Shown here piece by piece: positions 3,885 to 26,408 of a stretch of 64,000 bases of DNA. Location of the stretch: positions 38,417,239 through 38,481,238 of the forward strand of contig NC_080065.1 in assembly GCF_949987535.1 (NCBI RefSeq), read 5' to 3'. The stretch is from Balaenoptera acutorostrata (taxonomy: Eukaryota > Chordata > Mammalia > Artiodactyla > Balaenopteridae). The notes under the pieces are model-generated. The model did not search any database, was not told the origin of the DNA, and saw only the letters and a program-made list of their open reading frames with translations. Each line of letters begins with the position of its first letter. The first letter of the stretch is position 1. Made by a program: the position numbers and the translations under genes.

Positions 3885-4087
3885 CAGGAGTGGATCTTAA
3901 AGTGATCTCTAGACCAGCAGCATCAGCATCACTTGGGAAACTTTTTAGAAATGCAGATTCTTAAGACCCCCCCCCCTAGATCCACCGCATCAGCAACTAG
4001 GAGGAAAGGAGGGATTAAGCCCAGCAATCTTCATTCTAAAAAGCTCTCTGGATAATTCTGATATACACTGGAGTTTGAGAACCAGTA
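3885..4087 (+). mobile_element. MER20 (hAT-Charlie non-autonomous transposon)
   Basis: It contains the diagnostic blocks gaccagcagcatcagcatca, cttgggaaac, tttttagaaatgcagattct, cccagcaatcttcattct and the closing gtttgagaacca. About 200 bp, the full length for MER20. A run of nine C at about 3967-3975 lies inside it. Confidence 0.9.
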
Positions 4088-4400
4088 TATTAGAGTAACA
4101 ATTTGCTCAACATAGAATGGAAGACTGTTCTTGACAGAACAAAGTTAATATTCCCTGACGTACATCAGAAGGGACTGGGATTCATCAGAAGACCTTTTGC
4201 TATTTCATTGTTTGTCTGTTTGTTTTAGGAGAAATAGTATCCTCCCTACGCCATGAGCTGAGTAGAAAGAGGGCAAATTAGAGTCAGCATGATAAGGTAA
4301 TATTAACATGTGCACATAGCAATGAAACCCACATCCTTGGTCTCTTTAGGTAGCAGTCTACAGGCATATGTTGTACAAAATAATTGTCACATCTCTGTAG

Positions 4401-19378: not shown

Positions 19379-19391
19379 CTCAATAATTTTT
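19379..19391 (+). repeat. Left target-site duplication of the young L1
   Basis: ctcaataattttt, identical to 26396-26408. The empty site would read ctcaataattttt/aagag on the plus strand, a canonical TTTT/AA L1 endonuclease nick for a minus-strand insertion. Confidence 0.88.
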
Positions 19392-19420
19392 TTTTTTTTT
19401 TCCACACACACACACTGTAT

Positions 19421-19426
19421 TTTATT
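19421..19426 (-). terminator. Polyadenylation signal AATAAA of the transduced tail
   Basis: Plus-strand TTTATT, i.e. AATAAA on the minus strand, followed by tacagtgtgtgtgtgtgg and then the poly(A) (T10 on this strand). The signal-to-tail distance is about 20 nt, the usual spacing. The L1's own last 190 nt contain no AATAAA or ATTAAA, so this site probably ended the transcript. Confidence 0.85.
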
Positions 19427-20069
19427 TTTACAAGAGATAGATAGACTGACACCAAGCATTGTACATGGATGACCACAACAAAAGCAACAATGATTGCAAT
19501 TACCAAACATGAAACACACTTATACTATGTCATAATATTGACATTCAGTCCAGTAATCCTCCACTGTAACAGCTCCTTTACTTTGCAGTGAAAATTGATT
19601 TGTATATTCTTTTCCTCTGAGTCCTTGTGGGATTTTTTTTTTTTAATTCAGACAGAAAGTCACAAAAATTATACTCATCCTCATCAGTTCACTCAGTCCC
19701 ATGTAATTAATTTCTTTTTTTTCATCTTGATCTTTTGTTAGCAGTTTTATGAGTTCATCAGTTTTTCATTAGAGTTCTGAAAATGCTTATTCATTCAGTT
19801 CAGCAGTACAGTCAGTTACCAGAAACCTGTACTTGTCAGAGTCTTTTCCATGAATTTCTTGAAGATGAAACTCTTTTATAGGAACATATTTGCAAAATCA
19901 TCAGAGTACACCCAGAACTGTCTGTAAATGACAAAAGACTTAAAAATGACCATGGTTAAAGATTTGATGAAAGTTCATAATAATGCAGTTGACAAGAAAA
20001 TTAGTTATTTCTGAGATATACATTTTAAAGTAATAACTAGGATTATTACTTATAACATTATACCAGAAC

Positions 20070-20452
20070 ATATAAGATTTTTAGAAGTTTCCTGTAATGT
20101 CTGAAACATTTATATTAACATATTTCCATACATATTTCCATACAAATACAAATATAAGATTTTTAGAAATTTCATGTAATGTCTGAAACATTTATATTAA
20201 CATATTTCCATACATATTTCCATACAAATACAAATATAAGATTTTTAGAAATTTCATGTAATGTCTGAAACATTTATATTAACATATTTCCATACATATT
20301 TCCATACAAATACAAATATAAGATTTTTAGAAATTTCATGTAATGTCTGAAACATTTATATTAACATATTTCCATACAAATACAAATATAAGATTTTTAG
20401 AAATTTCATGTAATGTCTGAAACATTTATATTAACATATTTCCATACAAATA
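20070..20452. repeat. 82-bp tandem repeat, about 4.5 copies
   Basis: Units start with gtaatgtctgaaacatttat at 20094, 20176, 20258, 20340 and 20410. Spacings are 82, 82, 82 and 70 bp. The 70-bp unit and the last partial unit lack one copy of an internal 12-bp direct repeat (catatttccata). The first unit has a diverged lead (agaagtttcct for agaaatttcat). AT-rich, no coding potential. It lies wholly within the transduced segment. Confidence 0.95.
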
Positions 20453-20476
20453 ACCCAATGAAAGTTTAGTATTAGT

Positions 20477-20682
20477 TGTTTTGTTTGTTTTTTTATACTG
20501 CAGGTTCTTATTAGGCATCAGTTTTATACACATCAGTGTATACATGTCAATCCCAATCGCCCAATTCAGCACACCACCATCCCCACCTCATCGCAGTTTT
20601 CCCCCCTTGGTGTCCATATGTCCATTCTCTACATCTGCGTCTCAACTTCTGCCCTGCAAACTGGCTCATCTGTACCATTTTT
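20477..20682 (-). other. L1 3' UTR and internal A-rich end
   Basis: About 190 nt after the ORF2 stop, ending (minus strand) in gatgcctaataagaacctgc and tataaaaaaacaaacaaaac. Unlike the ccaataaagatgtt ends of the other L1s in the window, this end has no AATAAA. That makes transcript read-through plausible and fits the 3' transduction. Confidence 0.8.
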
Positions 20683-23600
20683 CTAGGTTCCACATACATG
20701 CATTAATATACGATATTTGTTTTTCTCTTTCTGACTTACTTCACTCTGTATGACAGTCTCTAGATCCATCCACGTCTCAACAAATGACTCAATTTCGTTC
20801 CTTTTTATGGCTGAGTAATATTCCATTGTATATATGTACCACAACTTCTTTATCCATTCGTCTGTTGATGGGCATTTAGGTTGCTTCCATGACCTGGCTA
20901 TTGTAAATAGTGCTGCAATGAACATTCGGGTGCACGTGTCTTTTTGAATTACGGTTTTCTCTGGGTATATGCCCAGTAGTGGGATTGCTGGGTCATATGG
21001 TAATTCTATTTTTAGTTTTTTAAGGAACCTCCATATTGTTCTCCATAGTGGCTGTATCAATTTACATTCCCACCAACAGTGCAAGAGGGTTCCCTTTTCT
21101 CCACACCCTCTCCAGCATTTGTTGTTTGTAGATTTTCTGATGATGCCCATTCTAACAGGAGTGAGGTGATACCTCATTGTAGTTTTGATTTGCATTTCTC
21201 TAATAATTAGTGATGTTGAGCATCTTTTCATGTGCTTCGTGGCCGTCTGTATGTCTTCTTTGGAGAAATGTCTATTTAGGTCTTCTGCCCATTTTTGGAT
21301 TGGGGTGTTTGTTTCTTTGATATTGAGCTGAATGAGCTGTTTATATATTTTGGAGATTAATCCTTTGTCCGTTGATTCATTTGCAAATATTTTCTCCCAT
21401 TCTGAGGGTTGTCTTTTCGTCTTGTTTATGGTTTCCTTTGCTGTGCAAAAGCTTTGAAGTTTCATTAGGTCCCACTTGTTTATTTTTGTTTTTATTTCCA
21501 TTACTCTAGGAGGTGGATCGAAAAAGATCTTGCTGTGATTTATGTCAAAGAGTGTTCTTCCTATGTTTTCCTCTAAGAGTTTTATAGTGGCCAGTCTTAT
21601 ATTTAGGTCTCTAATCCATTTTGAGTTTATTTTTGTGTATGGTGTTAGGGAGTATTCTAATTTCATTCTTTTACATGTGGCTGTCCAGTTTTCCCAGCAC
21701 CACTTATTGAAGAGACTGTCTTTTCTCCATTGTATATCTTTGCCTCCTTTGTCATAGATTAGTTGACCATAGGTGCGTGGGTTAATCTCTGGGCTTTCTA
21801 TCTTGTTCCATTGATCTATGTTTCTGTTTTTGTGCCAGTACCATATTGTCTTGATTACTGTAGCTTTGTAGTATAGTCTGAAGTCAGGGAGTCTGATTCC
21901 TCCAGCTCCATTTTTTTGCCTCAAGACTGCTTTGGCTATTCGGGGTCTTTTGTGTCTCCATACAAATTTTAAGATGATTTGTTCTAGCTCCGTAAAAAAT
22001 GCCATTGGTAATTTGATAGGGATTGCATTGAATCTGTAGATTGCTTTGGGTAGTATACTCATTTTCACAATGTTGATTCTTCCAATCCAAGAACATGGTA
22101 TATCTCTCCATCTGTTGGTATCATCTTTAATTTCTTTCATCAGTGTCTTATAGTTTTCTGCATACAGGTCTTTTGTCTCCCTAGGTAGGTTTATTCCTAG
22201 GTATTTTATTCTTTTTGTTGCAATGGTAAATGGGAGTGTTTCCATAATTTCTCTTTCAGATTTTTCATCATTAGTGTATAGGAATGCAAGAGATTTCTGT
22301 GCATTAATTTTGTAACCTGCAACTTTACCATATTCATTAATTAGCTCTAGCAGTTTTCTGGTGGCAGTTTTAGGATTCTCTATGTATAGTATCATGTCAT
22401 CCGCAAACAGTGACAGTTTTACTTCTTCTTTTCCAATTTGTATTCCTTTTATTTCTTTTTCTTCTCTGATTGCCGTGGCTAGGACTTCCAGAACTATGTT
22501 GAATAATAGTGGTGAGAGTGGACATCCTTGTCTCGTTCCTGATCTTAGAGGAAATGCTTTCAGTTTTTCACCATTGAGAATGATGTTTGCTGTGGGTTTG
22601 TCATATATGGCCTTTATTATGTTGAGGTAGGTTCCCTCTATGCCCACTTTCTGGAGAGTTTTTATCAGAAATGGGTGTTGAATTTTGTCAAAAGCTTTTT
22701 CTGCATCTATTGAGATGATCATATGGTTTTTATTCTTCAATTTGTTAATATGGTGTATCACATTGATTGATTTGCGTATATTGAAGAATCCTTGCATCCC
22801 TGGGATAAATCCCACTTGATCGTGGTGTATGATCCTTTTAATGTGTTGTTGGATTCTGTTTGCTAGTATTTTGTTGAGGATTTTTGCATCTATATTCATC
22901 AGTGATATTGGTCTGTAATTTTCTTTTTTTGTAGTGTCTTTGTCTGGTTTTGGTATCAGGGTGATGGTGGCCTCATAGAATGAGTTTGGGAGAGTTCCTT
23001 CCTCTGCAATTTTTTGGAAGAGTTTGAGAAGGATGGGTGTTAGCTCTTCTCTAAATGTTTGATAGAATTCACCTGTGAAGCCATCTGGTCCTGGACTTTT
23101 GTTTGTTGGAAGATTTTTAATCACAGTTTCAATTTCATTACTTGTGATTGGTCTGTTGATATTTTCTGTTTCTTCCTGGTTCAGTCTTGGAAGGTTATAC
23201 CTTTCTAAGAATTTGTCCATTTCTTCCAGGTTGTCCATTTTATTGGCATAAAGTTGCTTGTAGTAGTCTCTTAGGATGTTTTGTATTTCTGCAGTGTCTG
23301 TTGTAACTTCTCCTTTTTCATTTCTGATTTTATTGATTTGAGTCCTCTCCCTCTTTTTCTTGATGAGTCTGGCTAATGGCTTATCAATTTTGTTTATCTT
23401 CTCAAAGAACCAACTTTTAGTTTTATTGATCTTTGCTATTGTTTTCTTTGTTTCTATTTCATTTATTTCTGCTCTGATCTTTATGATTTCTTTCCTTCTG
23501 CTAACTTTGGGTTTTGTTTGTTCTTCTTTCTCTAGTTTCTTTAGGTGTAAAGTTAGATTGTTTACTTGAGATTTTTCTTGTTTCTTTAGGTAGGCTTGTA

Positions 23601-24501
23601 TAGCTATAAACTTCCCTCTTAGAACCGCTTTTGCTGCATCCCATAGGTTTTGGGTCGTCGTGTTTTCATTGTCATTTGTCTCTAGGTATTTTTTTATTTC
23701 CTGTTTGATTCCTTCAGTGATCTCTTGGTTATTTAGTAACGTATTGTTTAGCCTCCATGTGTTTGTCTTTTTTACGTTTTTTTCCCTGTGATTCATTTCT
23801 AATCTCATAGCGTTGTGGTCAGAAAAGATGCTTGATATGATTTCAATTTTCTTAAATTTACTGAGGCTTGATTTGTGACCCAAGATGTGATCTATCCTGG
23901 AGAATGTTCCGTGTGCACTTGAGAAGAATGTGTAATCTGCCGTTTTTGGATGGAATGTCCTATATATATCAATTAAATCTATCTGGTCTATTGTGTCATT
24001 TAAAGCTTCTGTTTCCTTATTTATTTTCATTTTGGATGATCTGTCCATTGGTGTAAGTGAGGTGTTAAAGTCCCCCACTATTATTGTGTTACTGTCGATT
24101 TCCTCTTTTATAGCTGTTAGCAGTTGCCTTATGTATTGAGGTGCTCCTATGTTGGGTGCATATATATTTATAATTGTTATATCTTCTTCTTGGATTGATC
24201 CCTGGATCATTATGTAGTGTCCTTCCTTGTCTCTTGTAACATTCTTTATTTTAAAGTCTATTTTATCTGATATGAGTATAGCTACTCCAGCTTTCTTTTG
24301 ATTTCCATTTGCATGGAATATCTTTTTCCATCCCCTCACTTTCAGTCTGTATGTGTCCCTAGGTCTGAAGTGGGTCTCTTGTAGACAGCATATATATGGG
24401 TCTTGTTTTTGTATCCATTCAGCCAGTCTATGTCTTTTGGTTGGGGCATTTAATCCATTCACGTTTAAGGTAATTATCGATATGTATGTTCCTATGACCA
24501 T
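20683..24501 (-). CDS. ORF2p: LINE-1 ORF2p: endonuclease / reverse transcriptase
   Basis: 1,272 codons without a break, against 1,275 in human L1. It nicks target DNA and copies L1 RNA by target-primed reverse transcription. The N-terminal APE-type endonuclease keeps every catalytic residue I could align: N13, E42 (LQETH), D144 (GDFNT), D204 (RIDHILG) and H229 (SDHNA). The reverse transcriptase has motif A ([14 protein letters not shown]) and the active-site FADDMILY near residue 700. The C-terminal Cys motif C-x3-C-x7-H-x4-C is complete (CWRGC...LLHCWWEC) near residue 1,140. The start Met lies 58 bp after ORF1, normal L1 spacing, so translation would rely on reinitiation or unconventional initiation. 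Nothing truncates it; whether it is active is untested. Confidence 0.95.
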
Positions 24502-24559
24502 TTTCTTAATTGTTTTGGGTTTGTTTTTGTAGGTCCTTTTCTTCTCTTGTGTTTCCCAC

Positions 24560-25465
24560 TTAGAGAAGTTCCTTTAGCATTTGTTGTAGAGCTGGTTTGG
24601 TGGTGCTGAATTCTCGTAGCTTTTGCTTGTCTGTAAAGCTTTTGCTTTCTCCATCAAATCTAAATGAGATCCTTGCTGGGTAGAGTAATCTTGGTTGTAG
24701 GTTCTTCCCTTTCATCACTTTAAGTATTTCATGCCACTCCCTTCTGGCTTGCAGAGTTTCTGCTGAGAAATCAGCTGTTAACCTTATGGGGGTTCCCTTG
24801 TATGTTATTTGTCGTTTTTCCCTTGCTGCTTTCAATAATTTTTCTTTGTCTTTAATTTTTGCCACTTTGATTACTATGTGTCTCGGCGTGTTTCTCCTTG
24901 GGTTTATTCTGTATGGGACTCTCTGCGCTTCCTGGACTTGGGTGGCTATTTCCTTTCCCATGTTAGGGAAGTTTTCGATTATAATCTCTTCAAATATTTT
25001 CTCTGGTCCTTTCTCTCTCTCTTCTCCTTCTGGGACCCCTATAATGCGAATGTTGTTGCGTTTAATGTTGTCCCAGAGGTCTCTTAGGCTGTCTTCATTT
25101 CTTTTTAGTCTTTTTTCTTTAGTCTGTTCCGCAGCAGTGAATTCCACCATTCTGTCTTCCAGGTCACTTATCCGTTCTTCTGCCTCAGTTATTCTGCTAT
25201 TGATTCCTTCTAGTGTAGTTTTCATTTCAGTTATTGTATTAGTCGTCTCTGTTTGTTTGTTCTTTAATTCTTCTAGGTCTTTGTTAATCATTTCTTGCAT
25301 CTTCTCAATCTTTGCCTCCATTCTTATTCCGAGGTCCTGGATCATCTTCACCATCAATATTCTGAATTCTTTTTCTGGAAGGTTGCCTATCTCCACTTCA
25401 TTTAGTTGTTTTTCTGGGGTTTTTTCTTGTTCCTTCATCTGGTACATAGCCCTCTGCCTTTTCAT
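24560..25465 (-). CDS. ORF1p: LINE-1 ORF1p: RNA-binding trimeric chaperone
   Basis: 301 codons, uninterrupted; human ORF1p has 338. It coats L1 RNA in cis to form the ribonucleoprotein needed for retrotransposition. Residues about 35-125 form a heptad-rich coiled coil ([27 protein letters not shown]). An RRM follows ([12 protein letters not shown], about 135-235), and then the C-terminal domain with [17 protein letters not shown] and [11 protein letters not shown]. These are the standard L1 ORF1 landmarks in the standard order. The chosen Met is the first in frame, just after the 5' UTR; the N-terminus is short but otherwise complete. The long open frame on the opposite strand (24786-25484) is a shadow of this gene. 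Confidence 0.93.
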
Positions 25466-26395
25466 CTTCTCTGTCTTTCTGTAACTGTGGTTTTTGGTCC
25501 ACAGGCTGCAGGATTGTAGTTTTTCTTGCTTCTGTTGTCTGCCCTCTGGTGGTTGAGGCTATCTAAGAGGCTTGATGGGAGGCTCTGGTGGTGGGTAGAG
25601 CTGACTGTTGCTGTGGTGGTCAGAGCTCAGTAAAACCTTAATCCACTTGACTGTTGATGGGTGGGGCTGGGTTCCCTCCCTGTTGCTGTGGCGATCAGAG
25701 CCCAGTAAAACCTTAATCCACTTGACTGTTGATGGGTGGGGCTGGGTTCCCTCCCTGTTGGTTGTTTTGCCTGAGGCAACCCAACACTGGAGCCTACCCG
25801 TGCTCTTTGGTGGGGTTAATGGCAGACTCTGGGAGGGCTCACGCCAAGGAGAACTTCCCAGGACCTCTGCTGCCAGTGTCCTTATCCCCACGGTGAAACA
25901 GAGCCACCACTCGCCTCTGCAGGAGACCCCCCAACACCAGCAGGTACGTCTGGTTCAGTCTCCCCCAGGGTCACTGCTCCTTCCCCTGGGTCCCGATGCA
26001 CACATTACTTTGTGTGTGCCCTCCAAGAGTGGGGTCTCTGTTTCCCCCAGTCCTGTCACAGTCCTGCAATCAATTCCCACTAGACTTCAAAGTCTGATTC
26101 TCTAGGAATTCCTCCTCCCTTTGCCGGACCCCCAGGTTGGGAAGCCTGAGGTGGGGCTCAGAACCTTCACTCCAGTGGGTGGACTTCTGTGGTATAAGTG
26201 TTCGCCAGTCTGTGAGTCACCCACCCAGCAGTTATGGGATTTGATTTTACTCTGATTGCGCCCCTCCTACCGTCTCACTGTGGCTTCTCCTCTTTCCTTG
26301 GACGTGGGGTGTCCTCCTTGGTGAAGTCCAGGGTCTTCCTGTCAATGATTGTCCAGCAGCCAGTTGTGATTCTGGTGCTCTCGCAAGAGGGAGTC
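25466..26395 (-). promoter_or_regulatory. L1 5' UTR with internal promoter
   Basis: 930 bp, G+C-richer than the flanks, starting (minus strand) gactccctcttgcgagagca directly at the target duplication. In L1 the 5' UTR carries an internal RNA polymerase II promoter; the position is established knowledge, and activity here is inferred. It includes two tandem 75-bp units (25606-25680 and 25681-25755) that differ at only a few bases. Its sequence does not resemble the 5' UTRs of the two other long L1s in the window. Confidence 0.75.
25606..25755. repeat. 75-bp tandem duplication in the L1 5' UTR
   Basis: Both copies start tgttgctgtgg and end gggttccctccc. Differences include ggtggtcagagctcag against ggcgatcagagcccag. 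The period is a multiple of three, so frames on either strand remain open through it. Confidence 0.93.
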
Positions 26396-26408
26396 CTCAA
26401 TAATTTTT
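26396..26408 (+). repeat. Right target-site duplication of the young L1
   Basis: ctcaataattttt, an exact match to 19379-19391, immediately next to the L1 5' end. The next bases, aagagtac, complete the TTTTT/AA target. Confidence 0.88.

Follow-up and report, generated by a model that had tools for sequence, protein, structure and literature searches.

In a 64,000-nucleotide stretch of the Balaenoptera acutorostrata genome (contig NC_080065.1, positions 38,417,239 to 38,481,238; hereafter the window) we analyzed a minus-strand long interspersed element 1 (L1) whose 3' end adjoins 1.07 kb of non-L1 DNA, and found that the L1, a short A-rich tract and this non-L1 segment (the tail) make up a single retrotransposed unit that has duplications and a poly(A) of its own and recurs at thousands of places in the same genome (we put the probability of this reading at roughly 0.93). 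The tail is an inherited, working 3' untranslated region (UTR) of an L1 family, and it marks that family rather than one parent copy. Its origin was probably an ancestral 3' transduction that became fixed as the family's 3' end, replacing the usual L1 end; the A-rich tract between L1 and tail suggests transduction, which, if so, took place in the ancestor of the whole family.

The boundaries of the focal insertion were clear. The 13-bp sequence CTCAATAATTTTT occurs exactly twice in the window, as a left (19379..19391) and a right (26396..26408) target-site duplication, neither being assigned to a strand; the chance of finding such a 13-mer at one place is 1e-7 given the window's base composition, or 1.7e-4 when ±20 positions on each side are allowed. 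Between them lie, from left to right, ten T beyond the duplication (the insertion's poly(A) tail on the minus strand, 19392..19401, within a run of 15 T at 19387-19401 that has five T in common with the duplication), the tail (19402..20475, minus strand), the A-rich (AAAC)n tract (20476..20494, minus strand) and the L1 body (20495..26394, minus strand). The polyadenylation signal AATAAA of the tail lies some 20 nt upstream of the poly(A) (19421..19426, minus strand), and the L1's own 3' end has none, the nearest related hexamer there being AATAAG (20512-20507). With AA following the right duplication, the exact 13-bp repeat, the 10 A beyond it and the TTTTT/AA nick site are those of a target-primed insertion, and a single L1-driven insertion created the duplications and carried in the 1.07 kb together with the L1. 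In all these particulars a preceding sequence-only reading of the window was borne out: the exact direct repeats, the left one joining a poly(T) followed by about 1.07 kb of non-L1 DNA, the far-end AATAAA, its absence from the L1's own end, and the TTTTT/AA target. It had also described the right repeat as touching the L1 5' end, and there it erred, as the 5' end is about 39 nt short and a single extra base (26395) separates the L1 from the repeat.

The same reading took the tail for a private 3' transduction, carried by a read-through transcript and usable as a tag for one parent L1. Pattern and similarity searches of the window's own genome (2.77 Gb, 1,374 contigs) gave a different picture: the tail's 3' end was matched at 4,308 places (45-mer, ≤3 mismatches; 0 for the reversed control), the L1/tail junction pattern at 3,981 exact places (control 0), and an exact pattern within the L1 3' UTR at 2,778 places (control 0). 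Because thousands of copies share the tail and the junction, the tail cannot point to one parent, and the downstream sequence is not confined to one source locus. A search with the 1.07-kb query led to the scoring of the best 40 of 337 first-look candidates, which were near-full-length matches of 98–100% identity, the window included. Contig C1 was compared over its first 77 Mb, where, among the matches listed, 76 of 78 exact L1 3' ends had the junction; for exact tail ends on that stretch, again among the matches listed, the junction lay within 1.7 kb in 20 of 31, and the other 11 fit copies that are cut inside the tail or depart from the exact junction pattern.

From the 39 other scored copies we retrieved 20, all from a best-40 set that represents the family members closest to the focal copy; each of the 20 had an L1 beside the tail with a junction identical to that of the focal element. 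The A-rich tract was likewise identical in the focal copy and all 20 fetched copies; its length is variable in the wider family. In a simple search (≥12 bp), 12 of the 20 composites were enclosed by duplications of their own, 12–18 bp long and all different. The same junction thus stands at many sites with different duplications, with an A-tract between L1 and tail and a poly(A) after the tail, as in a transduction lineage. Nine copies that are complete or nearly so, among them the focal one but not the complete copy L027, differed by 0–0.64% (mean 0.40%; 36 pairs, aligned bases, gaps ignored), and differences this small argue for recent activity of the family. Both ORF frames were open in nine of the 20 fetched copies (1295–1296 codons for the ORF2 frame, 312–337 for the ORF1 frame), four of these nine being 5'-truncated upstream of ORF1. 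At least one pair among the complete copies L009, L012–L015, L019, L021 and L023 showed zero base differences over ~6.9 kb aligned.

A second sample was drawn by tail end and regardless of L1, taking every fifth of 100 listed exact 45-mer matches (n = 20). A T-rich tract stood at the same terminal place in all 20 (within ~2 nt by eye); nine copies ran into L1, one ended shortly beyond the junction and eight broke off within the tail, while in the remaining two the sequence ended first. Of the eight tail-only copies, six had duplications of their own of at least 11 bp. Reverse transcription therefore begins at the poly(A) of the tail, and these copies have the form expected of 5'-truncated insertions made from an RNA whose 3' end is that of the tail. 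In the tail copy L038 the left flank itself appeared tail-like by eye, a nested insertion into an older copy.

The history of the 3' end can be followed in part from older elements. Three of the four other L1 ends in the window show the ordinary terminus CCAATAAAGAT(G/A)TT followed by A-rich sequence, the fourth not being alignable that far, and the homology of the older window L1s with the focal L1 ends near GTATA, ~0.18 kb before the ordinary L1 end. Ten junction copies with variant A-rich tracts were also fetched; after three (L053, L055 and L056) were dropped for flanking DNA in the aligned piece, the L1 part of the remaining seven was 1.4–4.5% diverged from the focal copy. Within the tail is an 82-bp tandem repeat (20070..20448, minus strand; ~4.8 units in the focal copy) that varies among copies, and in the ten variant-tract copies the unit was single in three and present three times in one, versus about five in the focal copy, with six unparsable. 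As the four parsed variant-tract copies carry fewer 82-bp units, the tail seems to predate the growth of its tandem repeat, contraction being the alternative. Among the parsed copies (L034, L036, L038, L052, L054 and L056) the repeat was as short as one unit (69 bp between landmarks) and as long as seven counted unit motifs (637 bp). A spike of LINE-1 and short interspersed element (SINE) subfamilies near 5% divergence is described for humpback, bowhead, orca and dolphin (PMC6657726).

We propose that an ancestral L1 would first have lost its usual last ~0.18 kb along with its AATAAA and then read through into flanking DNA, which would have supplied an AATAAA and a GT run; the segment so transduced would have become fixed as the new 3' end of the family, and later copies, the focal one included, would inherit it. 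On this proposal the A-rich tract at 20476..20494 is presumably the fossil poly(A) of the ancestral L1, and the tail would have been edited since, with changes to the 82-bp unit and the A-rich tract. The sequence-only reading was right about the insertion and its signature, and wrong in having this event move the flanking DNA of one parent, as the tail is shared family-wide.

Several points weigh against this account. We infer the transduction origin rather than read it from an ancestral source locus, and the insertions were read from a single genome. Duplications were not found for eight of the 20 composites in the simple search (≥12 bp), nor for two of the eight tail-only copies. Among the former eight, L017 and L024 have a flank in common, as expected of duplicates, and L014 has other DNA directly at its tail end, which we take to resemble a SINE. 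The copies do not all end at the same base of the tail: L014 begins 13 bases inside it, next to the other DNA; L017 and L024, of the 20 best copies, begin 18 bases inside, after a T/A-rich tract; and so do L052 and L059, of the ten older-type copies, L052 again after a T/A-rich tract. The four copies that begin 18 bases inside may reflect either a second, slightly earlier 3' end or a later change of the tail end. Both the best-40 sample and the exact-45-mer sample favor young copies. Finally, two of the 78 L1 3' ends (L049 and L050) lack the tail; they have the same L1 3' UTR, and a long T-rich tract closes each of them at the A-rich tract or no more than a few bases from it, so that occasional use of the old L1 end appears to persist (~2/78).

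Of the rival explanations, the one that survives best is template switching, in which reverse transcriptase first copied some unrelated polyadenylated RNA and then switched to an L1 RNA at its poly(A), the tail then becoming family-wide. This would yield the same L1-A(n)-tail-A(n) order, and we consider it unlikely on prior grounds only, read-through 3' transduction being a much commoner route; no result separates the two. L1/RNA chimeras are documented, with the RNA fused at the L1 5' end, in PMC13174262.

It is far less probable that the tail is a repeat in its own right, whether SINE-like or of another kind, beside which L1s happened to land, or that one L1 picked it up recently. Tail-only copies do exist (eight of the 20 in the second sample), as such a repeat would have them; however, they stop at different points and keep their 3' end, like 5'-truncated L1 insertions. 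Moreover, all 21 copies compared, counting the focal one, have the junction at one and the same base, and on the C1 stretch nearly every exact L1 3' end among the matches listed is joined to the tail (76/78). Nor did the tail resemble a catalogued family: at gathering thresholds Rfam held none for it, and Pfam gave no match for five of its six short frames and for the sixth only a sub-threshold one (CtaG_Cox11, E-value 0.13). A protein-coding segment or RNA family was rejected as a description of the tail on the same Pfam and Rfam results.

Hardly any credence is left for a private 3' transduction, in which only the parent of the focal L1 would adjoin the 1.07 kb and the focal event moved it; exact duplications outside the composite and a poly(A) at the far tail end agree with it, but it is rejected by the copy counts in the same genome (the exact junction at 3,981 places, the tail end at 4,308) and by the L1 found beside the tail in 20 of 20 fetched copies.

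With an ancestral transduction as the preferred origin, the family is a variant of known L1 behavior, a captured 3' end turned standard. It is like the human L1 transduction families described in PMC6425141, whose copies are linked by shared 3' transduced sequence and each have their own site and duplication. Unlike the human family of 14 members given there as the largest to date (2019), the family here has 3,981 exact junctions, and unlike the tags of those families the whale tail is the normal 3' end of its family and brings a polyadenylation signal of its own. As in mouse L1 (PMC3600994) and horse and rhinoceros L1 (PMC5872511), a lineage has gained non-homologous terminal sequence and then amplified; the emphasis in those two accounts is on 5' UTR recruitment and exchange between families, and 3' UTR recombination between families is described for mouse L1 (PMC3600994). 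Perissodactyl L1 3' UTRs are given as ~100 bp (PMC5872511), in contrast to the non-L1 1.07-kb segment with a tandem repeat at the 3' end here. Like SVA and LAVA, as these are described, the composite is an L1-mobilized unit containing a variable tandem repeat; unlike those non-autonomous elements, the focal element is an L1 with open ORF1 and ORF2. Among the matches listed in a search of the open literature we found no paper on a cetacean L1 3' tail; a Dfam or Repbase consensus may already hold it.

A foreign segment that was probably once a transduction can thus turn from a tag into a permanent, functional component of a successful L1 lineage, and a single-locus transduction signature identifies a parent only if the rarity of the segment has been shown. 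The family also offers thousands of natural replicates in which the frequency of L1 RNA ending at the old poly(A) site can be compared with that at the new one. We tentatively raise the idea, to which we give less than even odds, that the portable AATAAA and GT run from one transduction replaced the L1 polyadenylation signal and drove the dominance of the lineage, in which nearly all young L1 3' ends of the focal type have the tail (76 of 78) and the old end is in rare use (two of 78), with the tail also serving as a host terminal exon.

Traces of the tail were also found in public proteins. Its translation, with stops written as X, had 64 protein matches at E ≤ 10 (best E-value 6e-40), and a short frame spanning the L1/tail junction had 401 matches, of which all 120 among those listed cross the junction by eye. 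These junction-spanning proteins differ in the length of the A-rich tract and show two common L1-side variants, MPNKN and MTNKN. One public protein (P0166) fuses bacterial radical-SAM sequence to the tail translation and probably comes from a metagenome contig that is a chimera including host DNA. Among the 64 matches, two Balaenoptera gene models (P0168 and P0172), named LRRC37B-like and ZNF671-like, end in nearly the same 28–29 tail-encoded residues (window 19400-20000, minus strand), which suggests that the tail may provide a 3' terminal exon complete with splice acceptor, stop and poly(A) signal. We found no match to 19402-20475 elsewhere in the window, its L1s included, and no relatives of the tail in viral and GTDB prokaryote contigs.

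The focal L1 itself has the domain composition of a LINE-1. ORF1 (24560..25465, minus strand) is open over 301 aa, with trimerization, RBD-like and dsRBD-like domains (PF02994, PF17490 and PF17489), and ORF2 (20683..24501, minus strand) over 1272 aa, with APE-type endonuclease and reverse transcriptase domains (PF03372 and PF00078); residues 29–1293 of the ORF2 frame, almost its full extent, align to the human L1 ORF2p structure 8uw3 with 2039 bits. Since nine of the 20 fetched sister copies continue ~39 bases further, the focal L1 is slightly 5'-truncated, which bears on the completeness of this copy and not on its membership of the family. The ~39 nt absent from its 5' end include, as seen in those nine sisters, GCCATCTTG on the plus strand. 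In human L1, YY1 binds the 5' end and sets the transcription start, with GCCAT as the core of its motif (PMC11602158), and from the sequence of the sisters the lost ~39 bases may have contained a YY1-type site. Further in, the L1 5' UTR carries a 75-bp tandem repeat of 2.1 units (25605..25760, minus strand).

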